This document shows, piece after piece, positions 22,606 to 29,057 of a stretch of DNA of 31,779 nucleotides. The notes beneath the pieces are model-generated. The model ran no database searches. It had not been told where the DNA came from and was given only the letters and a program-made list of their open reading frames with translations. Source of the DNA: a virus. A program made the position numbers and the translations under genes. Every line of letters begins with the position of its first letter. Position 1 is the stretch's first letter. The DNA is taken from the IMG/VR virus record IMGVR_UViG_3300032288_001369, positions 1-31,779 of that record. One strand, written 5' to 3'.

Positions 22606-23252
22606 ATCTCACCTTGGTTTTTCATTTCTTCACCATACCGAATCATGCGGTAGGTATCAAAGTCCATCTCTTTTCCCTCGTACACTGCGAACCGATTCAT
22701 CCCACGCAGCTTGTCGTATTCTGCTATCACTTGTTTTTCAAATGGTGACAACTTCGACTCATAGCTTTCCGGTTTCTTGCGCTTTGTTTTAGTGGCAAGT
22801 TCGTCAATCAGTTTTTTCATTGCACCGTTAAAGCTCTCGGTACTCATGACCTCTTTGGCTTCTTGTTTATTCCTTTCCATTTGTTCACGTACAATTATTT
22901 CAGTTCTTTCGATATCGTATGCTCTCAACCATTCCATGATCACTGCTCCATCCAGTCGGTTGTATATCTTTCCGTACTTCCCGGACATTGCACCGCGAAA
23001 GCACTTGCGGAAATCATCAGGACTAAAGTAGTAGAAAGTTTCTTCGATTAACTCGGTTGTCATTTCCACTTGGTAGGGTGTCATGATTCGCTCCAAGCTA
23101 AAGTAGGTTTGCAACTGGTCTATTGAATTGGTGAGAATGCGTCTCACTGATTCAACACCTTCATGTTTTTTGATGTAGGCTAAACTCTTACAACTTGAAG
23201 TAGTTGGGATCATTAGCCCTGCGGTACTCGATTTCGCTAACTCGTTGCTCAT
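22602..23252 (-). CDS. Replication-associated protein, possible helicase loader
   Basis: 216 residues (MSNELAKSSTAGLMIPTTSS). It is helical throughout. The segment YYFSPDDFRKCFRGAMSGKY followed by GKIYNRLDGAVIMEWLRAYD is recognisable as a conserved block in Bacteroidetes phage proteins encoded beside replication initiators. A charged linker and a C-terminal KLSPFEKQVIAEYDKLRGMN region follow. Overlap with the initiator gene is 65 bases; ATG 23213 is an alternative start. The loader role is inferred from neighbourhood only; no ATP-binding loop is seen. Confidence 0.45.
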   Translation of the reverse strand: MSNELAKSSTAGLMIPTTSSCKSLAYIKKHEGVESVRRILTNSIDQLQTYFSLERIMTPYQVEMTTELIEETFYYFSPDDFRKCFRGAMSGKYGKIYNRLDGAVIMEWLRAYDIERTEIIVREQMERNKQEAKEVMSTESFNGAMKKLIDELATKTKRKKPESYESKLSPFEKQVIAEYDKLRGMNRFAVYEGKEMDFDTYRMIRYGEEMKNQGEI

Positions 23253-23877
23253 TGTCGTTTGTTTTTGTGGGTTTATTATTATTCATCCAATTTCGTGCAG
23301 TTGCATGCCAGTCCTTCATGGAATTTCTACCGACTTTCCAACCGTTGCTTGTGTAATAGTCAAAAAACTTTTGTGCTTCAAGAACAACCTTTGACTGTTG
23401 CCACTTGTTGCCAGCTTGAAAATTAAGTTCACTCATGTAATTCAAAACATCTATTGGTTCAGGTTTTTTGAACTTTCCACTTTCAACTTTAATTACATTT
23501 CTATTTTCATTTTCATTTTCATTTTCCATATGTTGAACATATGATGAAGATATGTTATTTGGAATATTTGGTTTACAAGTATTGATTTTCTTACGATTGT
23601 TGCGCCTACTCTCCGCATATGCAGCACGCTTTTTTACTTCTTCCAGCAATCTTTCATTCGCAAAGTTGCCATCGTCTTGTAATTTGAACTTGCTTTTGAT
23701 TGCGTTATGAATGTCATGTGATGAACATATCTTAATCATATGTTTTTCACTTAATGTTCCTTTTGATGCCTGATGACATAGGCAGCGGATGTAAGCACCG
23801 ACTTCTTCATTACTGAAGTCATCAGTACCTACGAGGAAATCTTGATAGTAAAATAAAAATGCTGGGTCTTTAGCCAT
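23188..23877 (-). CDS. Replication initiator-like protein (DUF1376/DnaD-like arrangement)
   Basis: 229 residues. The N-terminus (AFLFYYQDFLVGTDDFSNEE, then VGAYIRCLCHQ) is typical of DUF1376-like winged-helix replication proteins of phages. A low-complexity linker NENENENRN (encoded by TTTTCA repeats) separates it from a C-terminal domain with AQKFFDYYTSNGWKVGRNSM, KDWHATARNWM, a block common to phage and plasmid initiators. It probably binds the phage origin and recruits the host helicase. It is preceded by a structured leader with its own tiny ORF. Confidence 0.7.
   Translation of the reverse strand: MAKDPAFLFYYQDFLVGTDDFSNEEVGAYIRCLCHQASKGTLSEKHMIKICSSHDIHNAIKSKFKLQDDGNFANERLLEEVKKRAAYAESRRNNRKKINTCKPNIPNNISSSYVQHMENENENENRNVIKVESGKFKKPEPIDVLNYMSELNFQAGNKWQQSKVVLEAQKFFDYYTSNGWKVGRNSMKDWHATARNWMNNNKPTKTNDNEQRVSEIEYRRANDPNYFKL
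23504..23526. repeat. TTTTCA microsatellite inside the initiator gene
   Basis: TTTTCA is repeated three times plus TTTTC, encoding the NENENENRN linker on the leftward strand. Units are 6 bases, so gain or loss of a unit keeps the frame and only changes linker length. Confidence 0.85.
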
Positions 23878-23878
23878 A

Positions 23879-23968
23879 TCAAATACCCACCATCACATGC
23901 AAAGGCGAACCCTCGACCGACTGGTCTATGGCAATGCAGTGATGATGGGATTTAATTTCTAATTTCAT
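23879..23968 (-). CDS. Putative 29-codon leader ORF upstream of the initiator
   Basis: Starts at ATG 23968 and ends with TGA at 23879, one base before the initiator ATG (23877). The product would be MKLEIKSHHHCIAIDQSVEG followed by SPLHVMVGI. Three consecutive His codons lie in the 5' arm of a long hairpin and the last codons in its 3' arm. It could be a leader peptide coupling translation to the initiator, or a small protein. Coding is not proven. Confidence 0.4.
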   Translation of the reverse strand: MKLEIKSHHHCIAIDQSVEGSPLHVMVGI

Positions 23969-23978
23969 AAGGGTTCGC
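23881..23978 (-). promoter_or_regulatory. Structured leader with hairpin and possible pseudoknot before the initiator
   Basis: On the leftward transcript, CCCATCATCACTGC (23949-23936) pairs with GCATGTGATGGTGGG (23900-23886) with one bulge and one mismatch, and flanking ATTT/AAAT extend it. Inside the loop, GACC and GGTC form a small hairpin. In addition, GCGAACCCT elements are complementary: AGGGTTCGC on the + strand at 23970-23978 is the exact inverse of 23905-23913, so the 5' leader can pair with the loop. The base of the stem is 3 bases from the initiator ATG. This could control translation of the initiator or be part of the origin. Confidence 0.5.
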
Positions 23979-23982
23979 TTGA

Positions 23983-24012
23983 CAAAAATACAATTATCTC
24001 AAAAGCATTAAA
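23983..24012 (-). promoter_or_regulatory. Candidate Bacteroidetes-type promoter for the initiator
   Basis: On the - strand, TATTTTTG (23990-23983) matches the TAnnTTTG -7 consensus exactly, with a weak -33 (TTTA, 24012-24009) 18 bases upstream. The transcript would begin close to the leader segment that can pair with the hairpin loop. The -33 match is poor. Confidence 0.3.
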
Positions 24013-26534: not shown

Positions 26535-27830
26535 TTAGACGTAGGAATATTTTCCGTAATTGGGCACAAGTTCGAAATACATCCGCATCATGATCGCGTC
26601 AGCATAGTCTGGAGATATGCCGTGGAGTGCTTTGATTTCGTCTTTACCGGTGACGGACAACTTTCCATCGGCTTCGGGTCGCTTCCTGCGAATCATGTCA
26701 AGTTCCTTGGTAATGATTTCGCGCTTTGGTATTGGGAAAATCACCTTGCCTTGCTCAATTAACTCTGCGAGCTTGTAGTAGCATTCGGCTTTTTGATTGA
26801 TGTATGTTTCGGGTTTGGTGGCACGCTTCTGATTCTGAAACCCTCGGCACTTGAGATAGTCAACCGCACCGCTGCCCAGTCCATCCTCATCCGCGATCAC
26901 ATTCGATAGCTTCACCGAATACTTACCAATCAATCCTCGCATGTACTGGACCACTTCGTCAATCCGTTTCTTGTGCAGTTCGTGTGTCTCAATTAGCTGA
27001 AGTCCTCTCCACACGCAAATGATGGTCCGGTCTTTTCCGAGTCGCGCAATATCCGCACTGATAAACATTTCTCCGGTTCCAAGTTCTTCGCGAAAGCAAC
27101 GGAGCAAATCATCATACTTAAATAACCAGTCAATGCTTTCATCAAAGTCCCAATCTCCATGAAGTAATCTTTTGCGGTCTGCTTCCGGTAAACTTGCAAG
27201 TGTTTGCAGATAGCTTTCAGGTAGGTGCGGATTGTCACCGGGTAATGCCTGCACGAAAGCATACATAGGTTTCAAACTTTCGGTTCGCCATGGATCATAG
27301 AACTCATTGTAAAGCCATCCTTTGGACGGATTGCATGTAAGTAGTGCTTTCGGTTGCAGATTGAATTCATTTAGCTTAAAACGAACGCGAGAGCGCAGCA
27401 CATCAATGGCTTTCTTTGTGACTTGACTAACCTCGTCCACGTAAAAGTCAGTAAGCTCCAAACCACCGAGCGAATCAAACACCGGGTCCGATGGGTATTG
27501 AAACAAATCTTTCAGAATGATTTCGGATTTGTTGAAGAACGTGATTACATTGGTACTACCATTTAACTCATAGTCACGACCGGTACGAAGGTTCATCATG
27601 CCTGCAACTTCAAAGAATGTCTTGACGGTTGTTTTTTTGAGCGTGTCAAGTTTAGACCTACCAATTAACCCACGCGAGCCAGCGTAATGAAGCCGTCTCA
27701 TGATCTGCCAAGCGCATCCGGTGAATGACTTCGACCCTCCAGCTGCTCCACCATAAAGAACTATTTGTGCAGGGGAGTCAGTTGAAAGAGCTTTGAAGCA
27801 TTCGATTTGTTTTGGCAGGTAGGTAATCAT
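26535..27830 (-). CDS. terL: Terminase large subunit
   Basis: 431 residues. The ATPase part has Walker A GGAAGGSKS (27-35), Walker B with VDE (131-133, in LTDFYVDEVSQ) and the coupling motif TCNPSKG (165-171). The nuclease part has Asp260 in SADIARLGKDRT, Asp314/Asp316 in VIADEDGLGSG and the final acid pair in SPDYADAIMMR (408-411). The enzyme cuts concatemeric DNA and pumps it into the prohead through the portal. It lies in the leftward block, opposite to the other virion genes, overlapping the DnaA-like gene by 4 bases. Confidence 0.95.
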   Translation of the reverse strand: MITYLPKQIECFKALSTDSPAQIVLYGGAAGGSKSFTGCAWQIMRRLHYAGSRGLIGRSKLDTLKKTTVKTFFEVAGMMNLRTGRDYELNGSTNVITFFNKSEIILKDLFQYPSDPVFDSLGGLELTDFYVDEVSQVTKKAIDVLRSRVRFKLNEFNLQPKALLTCNPSKGWLYNEFYDPWRTESLKPMYAFVQALPGDNPHLPESYLQTLASLPEADRKRLLHGDWDFDESIDWLFKYDDLLRCFREELGTGEMFISADIARLGKDRTIICVWRGLQLIETHELHKKRIDEVVQYMRGLIGKYSVKLSNVIADEDGLGSGAVDYLKCRGFQNQKRATKPETYINQKAECYYKLAELIEQGKVIFPIPKREIITKELDMIRRKRPEADGKLSVTGKDEIKALHGISPDYADAIMMRMYFELVPNYGKYSYV

Positions 27831-28435
27831 GCAAGGGCAAGACGGTTGCTTTCTCTCACCGCTATTACTTCAGCGTAACTATCTTCAAGTTTTTGGATTT
27901 GCGTGACTACTGGTTCGAAGCGATTCATGTCAACGCACATTTGCTTAATTGTGTCAAGGTCTTTGCGCAAGACGTGGTCGTAACAATACGAGTTCATAAT
28001 TTTGCGGTATGCGTGAATCATGGTTGAGTGGTCTTTACGTGGTGTGAACTTTGCACCGATTTCAGATAGTGGGCAAAGGTGAGCAATACCCATGAATTGA
28101 GTTCTCATCAGGAAAATCAGAATGGAGCGAGCGTAAACGAAATTCGCGTGCCGTGTGTAGCTGCTCAAGACGTGATTGCATCCAGTGACTGCGCCAACCA
28201 TTGCTTCAAATTCAGGCACTACCTTTTCCACAATGTAATCGTCTCCGATTATTTCTGCTACACGCTGACGCGATTCATTGTAGGACATGATTCGGTGCGC
28301 TTCATTCATAATTGCTTTGTGCAGGAAGTCTCTGACCTCTTGCTTTAACACGAATGCAGCATCACTAACGGTGCGCATTTCACTTGGTGTCAGGGTGATT
28401 AAGGATTTACCCTCGGTGTTGAATACTTTGCTCAT
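27827..28435 (-). CDS. DnaA domain IV-like DNA-binding protein upstream of terL
   Basis: 202 residues. Residues about 100-146 contain YARSILIFLMRTQFMG, LSEIGAKFTPRKDHSTMIHA and YRKIM, matching the C-terminal DNA-binding domain IV of DnaA (the GRDHSTV-type signature that reads the DnaA box). There is no AAA+ ATPase domain. It overlaps the large terminase start by 4 bases, the place where phages usually encode the small terminase subunit. It may recognise the packaging site, the origin, or both. Confidence 0.7.
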   Translation of the reverse strand: MSKVFNTEGKSLITLTPSEMRTVSDAAFVLKQEVRDFLHKAIMNEAHRIMSYNESRQRVAEIIGDDYIVEKVVPEFEAMVGAVTGCNHVLSSYTRHANFVYARSILIFLMRTQFMGIAHLCPLSEIGAKFTPRKDHSTMIHAYRKIMNSYCYDHVLRKDLDTIKQMCVDMNRFEPVVTQIQKLEDSYAEVIAVRESNRLALA

Positions 28436-28502: not shown

Positions 28503-29057
28503 GTGAATGAATGTCTCGAAATCGCGGTCAAAGAAGGACTCCCGATGTGGACGAAATTCGCTTTTACCCTCACAAGAAACCAAACGAACGCGAAGGACTT
28601 GGTCAGCGAAGCACTGGTTAAGATACTTGAGAACCAAAGGGATAAAGCCGAAGAACTCGCTTGCGAAAATCGGTTACTTTCATACGTACACCGGGCAATT
28701 TACCTCATGGCAATCGATGACTCGTCAAGATATGGAATGAAGTACATGCAGTTCGCCCAAAGGTGGAATGAGAATGACGATGCTTTTGAATACGAACCTG
28801 AAAAACCATGGCTGGGTTCTCGACTTGACAATGAACTGCTCGACACATACATTCAAATCATGCCTGAACGCGATGCAATACTTTTGCGTTTATACATGCT
28901 GGATGGCTTCGATTACAAGGACTTGAGCGACAAGACTCACATACCAATAAAAAGACTCTACAAATACATAAGCAACGCACTAAAAAAAATCAGAAACGAT
29001 GTTCACCGTACCACCAGCCATCCGAGACAGTCGAATGAAGACTTGTCAGGAATGTAA
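28503..29057 (+). CDS. Sigma-70 family (ECF-like) sigma factor
   Basis: 184 residues from GTG 28503. Residues about 1-75 resemble sigma region 2 (FAFTLTRNQTNAKDLVSEAL, VKILENQ). Residues about 115-165 resemble region 4 with a helix-turn-helix (IMPERDAILLRLYMLDGFDY, KDLSDKTHIPIKRLYKYIS). The spacing is that of ECF sigma factors. As first gene of the rightward block it is a candidate driver of late transcription. The start is a GTG without a Shine-Dalgarno sequence; the next in-frame ATG would remove part of region 2. Confidence 0.7.
   Translation: MNECLEIAVKEGLPMWTKFAFTLTRNQTNAKDLVSEALVKILENQRDKAEELACENRLLSYVHRAIYLMAIDDSSRYGMKYMQFAQRWNENDDAFEYEPEKPWLGSRLDNELLDTYIQIMPERDAILLRLYMLDGFDYKDLSDKTHIPIKRLYKYISNALKKIRNDVHRTTSHPRQSNEDLSGM

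Follow-up and report, generated by a model that had tools for sequence, protein, structure and literature searches.

A structured leader RNA with a hypervariable complementary pair, a candidate transcription attenuator before phage replication genes

In the repZ leader of the IncB and ColIb-P9 plasmids, a loop pairs with a distant segment to form a pseudoknot beside the rep start, and the leader also contains an ORF whose peptide is required. The C4 RNA of phages P1 and P7 (RF01695) represses translation of icd/ant. C4 has been reported from Proteobacteria and phages (PMC2864571). The CI RNA of P4 is a same-strand leader RNA that prematurely terminates transcription of the replication operon (PMC4825925). 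In pT181, a terminator lies directly before the replication gene and control is exerted by RNA pairing with loop-loop kissing (PMC4878617). The phage leader described here has complementary segments within one same-strand leader transcript, as do P4 CI and C4. Nevertheless, a search of Rfam 15, with its C4, ToxI, AbiF-type and riboswitch families included, at the gathering score gave no matches in the window, by which we mean the whole 31,779-base virus record analysed, and only a tRNA across 18 relative loci; at E-value thresholds, the best sub-threshold match was snoU30 (E 0.36). The layout of RNA, terminator and gene resembles that of type III toxin-antitoxin systems and AbiF, an identity that was rejected because the downstream genes encode several unrelated replication proteins and Rfam gives no match.

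Leader, promoter and downstream genes

The leader lies on the minus strand, directly upstream of a replication gene. Its features in the window, with the evidence for each in brackets, are as follows.

23983-23990, minus strand: -7 promoter element TATTTTTG, Bacteroidota type TAnnTTTG (sequence; box spacing in relatives)
23978-23878, minus strand: leader RNA region, before the gene at 23877-23188
23970-23978, minus strand: segment A, GCGAACCCT, partner of A', its first base being the predicted +1 (9/9 pairing, 67 leaders)
23879-23968, minus strand: leader ORF of 29 codons, MKLEIKSHHHCIAIDQSVEGSPLHVMVGI and a stop (sequence; frames differ in relatives)
23935-23953, minus strand: main, terminator-like stem, 5' arm, AAATCCCATCATCACTGCA (helix 2, 99.3% of cells paired)
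23915-23926, minus strand: inner hairpin GACC-AGTC-GGTC (helix 3, two-sided changes at 4/4 pairs)
23905-23913, minus strand: segment A', AGGGTTCGC, within the hairpin loop (pairing and covariation)
23881-23901, minus strand: main stem, 3' arm, TGCATGTGATGGTGGGTATTT (covariation alignment)
23878-23885, minus strand: T-rich tail, TATTTGAT, from the stem core to the start codon (weak U-tract; overlaps the AU extension of the stem)
23188-23877, minus strand: primosomal/helicase-loader-like replication protein, 229 aa (PHROG 3992, 9327 and 8489; weak DUF1376)

The main stem comprises 19 pairs and two single-base bulges and ends 3 bases from the ATG at 23877, and A and A' are exact complements. The leader fold is not a product of chance, since its z-score is -3.5 and none of 200 shuffles equals it. 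All of the elements that a first-pass annotation had pointed out, namely the stem, the inner hairpin and the 9-nt complementary segment, were located on the minus strand, together with the 29-codon ORF, which contains CAT CAT CAC and has its stop one base 5' of the ATG. Three points go beyond that annotation: A is positioned at the predicted transcription start, the stem is followed by a terminator-like T-rich tail, and A and A' are hypervariable.

In Flavobacterium, the -7 element TAHHTTTG occupies positions -12 to -5 and the start site is found 4-5 nt downstream (PMC6847099). The corresponding box lies exactly 4 nt before A in 66 of the 67 leaders aligned below, the remaining leader having no box. 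Given this spacing and the Flavobacterium consensus, the transcript is predicted to begin at A, which would form its first 9 nt, with an invariant G as +1.

The first-pass annotation called the downstream gene a replication initiator, a designation that is unproven. Primosomal/helicase-loader-like is a better description, considering that the PHROG matches of the protein are to primosomal and DnaD-like loader families and that DUF1376 is matched weakly in 7 of 13 of its relatives. Viral relatives of the protein number 80 or more. Leaders of this kind precede several different proteins. The ones that were scanned have a C-terminal region in common, PHROG 15768, which is associated with primosomal/helicase-loader-like proteins; one leader sits before a helicase-methyltransferase. 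This variety is consistent with control of a replication operon. Unlike N-termini are combined with the common PHROG 15768 region in L181 (8564-9256), L092 (844-1500) and the window (23188-23877), so modules behind the same leader carry swapped N-terminal domains. Elsewhere in the window, a phage sigma-70-like factor (28503-29057, plus strand; Pfam Sigma70_r4_2) is encoded divergently from the terminase side and could direct transcription from a class of promoters, and a protein with a DnaA C-terminal HTH domain (27827-28435, minus strand) adjoins the terminase large subunit.

Covariation and recurrence of the plan

Obviously related leaders are found with four relatives of the downstream protein (L002, L003, L004 and L006) and in L024. 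The search pattern AAATCCCAYCRNYACYGCATTGCC, which is confined to the 5' arm and the initial bases of the loop, matched 103 viral stretches; 81 distinct leaders were listed from these matches and the 67 complete ones were aligned. Conservation of the 5' arm in this set is by construction, whereas A, A', the inner hairpin and the 3' arm were unselected. The relatives are metagenomic viral contigs throughout, and their Bacteroidota-type assignment comes from the promoter type.

Segments A and A' are paired at 9/9 positions, in 100% of the cells, in all 67 distinct leaders, despite falling into 13 types, for example GCTACTCAG/CTGGGTAGC, GCGTACCCT/AGGGTACGC, GACTATCCG/CGGATAGTC and GCTCGTTCG/CGGACGAGC. 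Two-sided changes affect six of the nine pairs, and the column pair 12-86 uses UA, GC, CG and AU. In the inner hairpin, 4/4 pairs change on both sides, and 99.3% of the main-stem cells are paired. When the structure is slid by 1-3 columns, pairing drops to 30-53%, and no shuffle reached the observed covariation score. On the gene strand, about 154 cells hold G-U pairs and no more than 9 are unpaired, a pattern that favours function in gene-strand RNA rather than in DNA or on the opposite strand. Both arms are retained and show compensatory changes among the homologues, so the pseudoknot and the structured control leader proposed in the first-pass annotation are strongly supported by covariation. 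We regard the leader structure described here as all but certain, and the leader of the window as one member of a phage RNA family.

The same plan, consisting of a -7 promoter, A, a terminator hairpin with A' in its loop, a T-rich tail and an ATG, was also sought with a detector which, downstream of -7 boxes, looks for A, A' and an enclosing stem. We estimate that the plan recurs in about 15 further families unlike that of the window in sequence, several of them with a pair of kissing 7-nt loops, a count read from the list of hits and not from formal clustering. The A/A' pairs reported by the detector include GTAGAAG/CTTCTAC (L022), GTAGCAG/CTGCTAC (L030), GTCAGAT/ATCTGAC (L028), GTAGCCG/CGGCTAC (L077), GTGGTAG/CTACCAC (L068), GTAGTGAG/CTCACTAC (L026), TGGAACC/GGTTCCA (L065), TGCAACC/GGTTGCA (L245), TGAACCC/GGGTTCA (L311) and GGGAAAC/GTTTCCC (L300). 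In the family of L022, L030, L028 and L057, both A and A' are 7-nt hairpin loops, that is, a kissing arrangement, and two-sided changes occur at 4/7 of the loop-loop pairs, in leaders for which pairing itself was partly selected by the detector. In the second set searched, 85 of 910 sites score at least 27, versus 12 after shuffling, so that chance could account for a minority of the single families with weak scores; 50 of the 54 distinct hits in this set are on the gene strand. Altogether, the architecture occurs in well over 100 viral contigs.

In the large TCGCAGC/GCTGCGA family (L025, L029, L038, L043, L047, L050 and L052), a gene resembling, by eye, an HNH homing endonuclease lies between the leader and the replication gene, and a further CGCAGC copy is found past the T-tract. 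In L368 (2560-2755), a contig binned as Saccharibacteria, apparently the same plan stands behind a TTGACA/TAAGAT promoter, where a 5' hairpin carries GCGAGCC in its loop and a terminator-like hairpin preceding the ATG carries GGCTCGC in its own. This single example, recognized by eye, suggests that the plan reaches beyond Bacteroidota-type promoters.

Attenuation and competing readings

As in an intrinsic attenuator, a G+C-rich hairpin and a T-rich tail lie between the promoter and the gene. Most families have a T-rich stretch after the hairpin and then the start codon, with U7-U9 in several of them, and the 12 nt past the stem contain on average 7.7 T, compared to 3.3 before other start codons. 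The tail of the window family is interrupted (TATTTGAT, TATTTAGTTT) and weaker than those of the other families, so termination there may be partial. A simple terminator scan did not call the hairpin of the window, the loop being too large. Since the promoter is upstream of the hairpin, all transcripts of the gene from that promoter must pass through it. In folds of the growing chain, A:A' and the adjacent inner hairpin are present at lengths of 75-85 nt (-19.8 kcal/mol). The terminator stem does not appear until the chain reaches about 90 nt (-22 to -36 kcal/mol), which leaves A:A' time to form before it. No classical antiterminator sequestering a terminator arm appears in these folds, only A:A'.

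What is observed in the family comprises the structure and its covariation, the spacing from the promoter, the T-rich tail and the position before the gene. With moderate confidence, we interpret the leader as an attenuator that acts in cis on transcription of the phage replication operon and is controlled by A:A', and the data suggest an undescribed RNA switch for starting replication. Transcription would start at A. After a further 65 nt or so, the loop segment A' would exit RNA polymerase and could pair with A while the 3' arm is still to be made, as a pseudoknot in the family of the window and as a loop-loop kiss in others. Synthesis of the 3' arm would then complete the terminator-like hairpin, with the T-rich tail directly before the first gene. 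Pairing of A with A' would set how often polymerase stops, leaving a leader RNA of about 95-100 nt, or reads through into the replication gene. We favour the sign in which A:A' delays the terminator, the hairpin itself being a putative site of termination. Since the hairpin and A:A' can coexist as a pseudoknot or kiss, A:A' is a candidate antiterminator and not a proven one. With lower confidence, A' of a released leader RNA may pair with A on a second transcript of matching type; expression would then respond to the number of genome copies or to co-infection by a relative.

Mean per-site diversity is 0.36 in A and A' and 0.34 in the inner hairpin, against about 0.05 in the stem arms, so that A/A' are seven times more variable than the stem. 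The A type differs in 29 of the 48 leader pairs with at least 95% identity over the next 250 nt, and one of these 29 is 100% identical there. Between the window and L002, the flanks are about 97% identical on both sides and the leader inside is sharply different; in L005, the protein is 98% identical to that of the window, and the leader belongs to another family and is located upstream of inserted genes. Recombination of a 110-nt cassette can produce such turnover of types, and rapid phage recombination could explain part of it without selection. That many discrete types persist, pairing only weakly with one another, suggests selection on specificity, and it is mainly for this apparent selection that we keep a trans-acting role under consideration.

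Under such a role, which we treat as a tentative possibility, the terminated leader would accumulate as a small RNA and its A' (or A) would pair with new transcripts of the same type, shutting off the replication operon as P4 CI RNA does and thereby setting copy number or excluding co-infecting relatives of the same type. The A/A' alleles are hypervariable and mutually discriminating on a constant scaffold; cognate duplexes have energies of -12 to -17 kcal/mol and non-cognate ones are mostly weaker. Several allelic types are found within one metagenome, and the complementary 7-nt loops resemble antisense kissing loops. On the other hand, with A and A' on one RNA, pairing in cis should predominate. 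The orthogonality of the leaders in two-leader genomes was rejected as evidence: the A/A' types do differ in 4/4 such genomes, but chance alone would give this outcome more than half the time. There is also no prophage immunity to explain, since the 24-nt core pattern is absent from 84,980 species genomes. An extension of the trans-acting role, which we offer as a speculation and consider rather doubtful, is RNA-only incompatibility or superinfection control in apparently virulent phages. Released leader RNA would silence replication operons carrying the same allele, and negative frequency-dependent selection would keep more than 12 alleles on one scaffold and swap them between near-identical phages.

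Two leaders with different A/A' types are carried by each of four contigs, namely L120 (7579-7689 and 5205-5315, minus strand), L181 (6073 and 8455), L094/L208 (G007), and L092 and L141 (G005). In L120 and L181, one leader precedes the helicase-methyltransferase and the other the replication gene.

Burial of the 5' terminus by A:A' could instead stabilize the 5' end of the mRNA, or the leader could be a scaffold for a phage or host protein, in both cases without attenuation. Such a function would agree with A starting at the predicted +1, but it leaves unexplained both the hypervariable pair and the presence, in nearly all families, of a terminator-like tail ahead of the ATG, and we consider it improbable.

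The first-pass annotation proposed leader-peptide control: ribosomes reading the short ORF would open the stem, and its translation would be coupled to the replication gene. An ATG right after A does open a short ORF in the 67 aligned leaders, and an elongating ribosome would cover the 5' arm. Neither the peptide nor the frame is conserved, however. A different short peptide from that of the window, mostly of 13 codons, is encoded by 62 of the 67 leaders, commonly MK(N/T)(I/F)xNP(T/I)(T/I)TALP, whose stop codon falls inside the loop or a few codons beyond it and whose codon 5 varies freely between amino acids. Other frames or run-on are seen in the window (29 codons), L002 and L006 (33 codons, in the frame of the window), L024 (shifted) and L165 (shifted). 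The second leader of L181 has a 1-nt deletion that leaves a shifted 4-codon ORF, and in L094 ATA replaces the ATG. Several kissing families with the same plan of A, A' and terminator lack a leader ATG. The conserved peptide and regulatory codon run of an amino-acid attenuator are absent from the leaders; the 29-codon frame and its His run are private to the window. Because frames differ and some families have no ORF, peptide-specific control is unlikely as the shared function, and as the core mechanism we judge it quite improbable. Translation could still modulate the hairpin in some families. In L073 and L074, the whole attenuator upstream of the replication gene lies within the leader ORF, and the two peptides are similar (MSxxIIxKxFxPKGYWRxRPPLFR) despite differing A and A'.

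Finally, a DNA-level element, either an origin hairpin or a protein-binding inverted repeat, is very unlikely: inverted repeats do occur ahead of replication genes, but the frequent gene-strand G-U pairs would be A-C on the other strand, and the repeat varies freely in sequence at a position fixed relative to the -7 box.

Comparison with described RNA regulators

The leader DNA has no match in named phage records. Among cultured Bacteroidota genomes, the downstream gene is present in a few, and the detector finds no leader upstream of it. Our search of the open-access literature turned up no leader that pairs its 5' terminus with the apical loop of its own terminator. RNA-based transcription control in phages of Bacteroidota is little described, and the present architecture is both recurrent and absent from Rfam. 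It is placed where expression of phage replication genes could be decided, and the matched hypervariable pair makes direct testing possible. If pairing acts between molecules, it would provide phages with a sequence-specific, protein-free way to count themselves or exclude kin, and these leaders would form a naturally discriminating set of attenuators ready for use in Bacteroidota.

None of P4 CI, C4 and pT181 is matched in full: the leader matches no Rfam family and lacks a seqC-like site, an antisense promoter does not recur, and the host genomes searched contain no copies of the core. Compared to the IncB and ColIb-P9 leaders, A is at the 5' end here and the ORF is unconserved. The resemblance to pT181 concerns the position of the terminator before the replication gene and the kissing-type RNA pairing. 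pT181, however, uses a separate antisense RNA and an antiterminator that pairs with a terminator arm, whereas only A:A' is found here, and an antisense TAHHTTTG promoter on the opposite strand within 400 nt occurs in only 6 of the 67 leaders. With C4, the leaders share short variable complementary segments in a structured phage RNA transcribed from the strand of its target, although the leader family lacks an Rfam match. In P4, which is a temperate satellite, regulation is exerted by a processed antisense RNA that has two target sites. Here, by contrast, A is at the predicted +1, A' is in the loop of the terminator-like hairpin itself, and neither prophages nor sequence or Rfam similarity were found; the window contains only the two known A/A' copies, with 1-mismatch matches at the chance level, and thus no third site comparable to seqC. 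What the leaders have in common with the CI, seqA and seqC arrangement of P4 is a structured leader before phage replication genes, in which a loop segment is complementary to an upstream segment of the same transcript.
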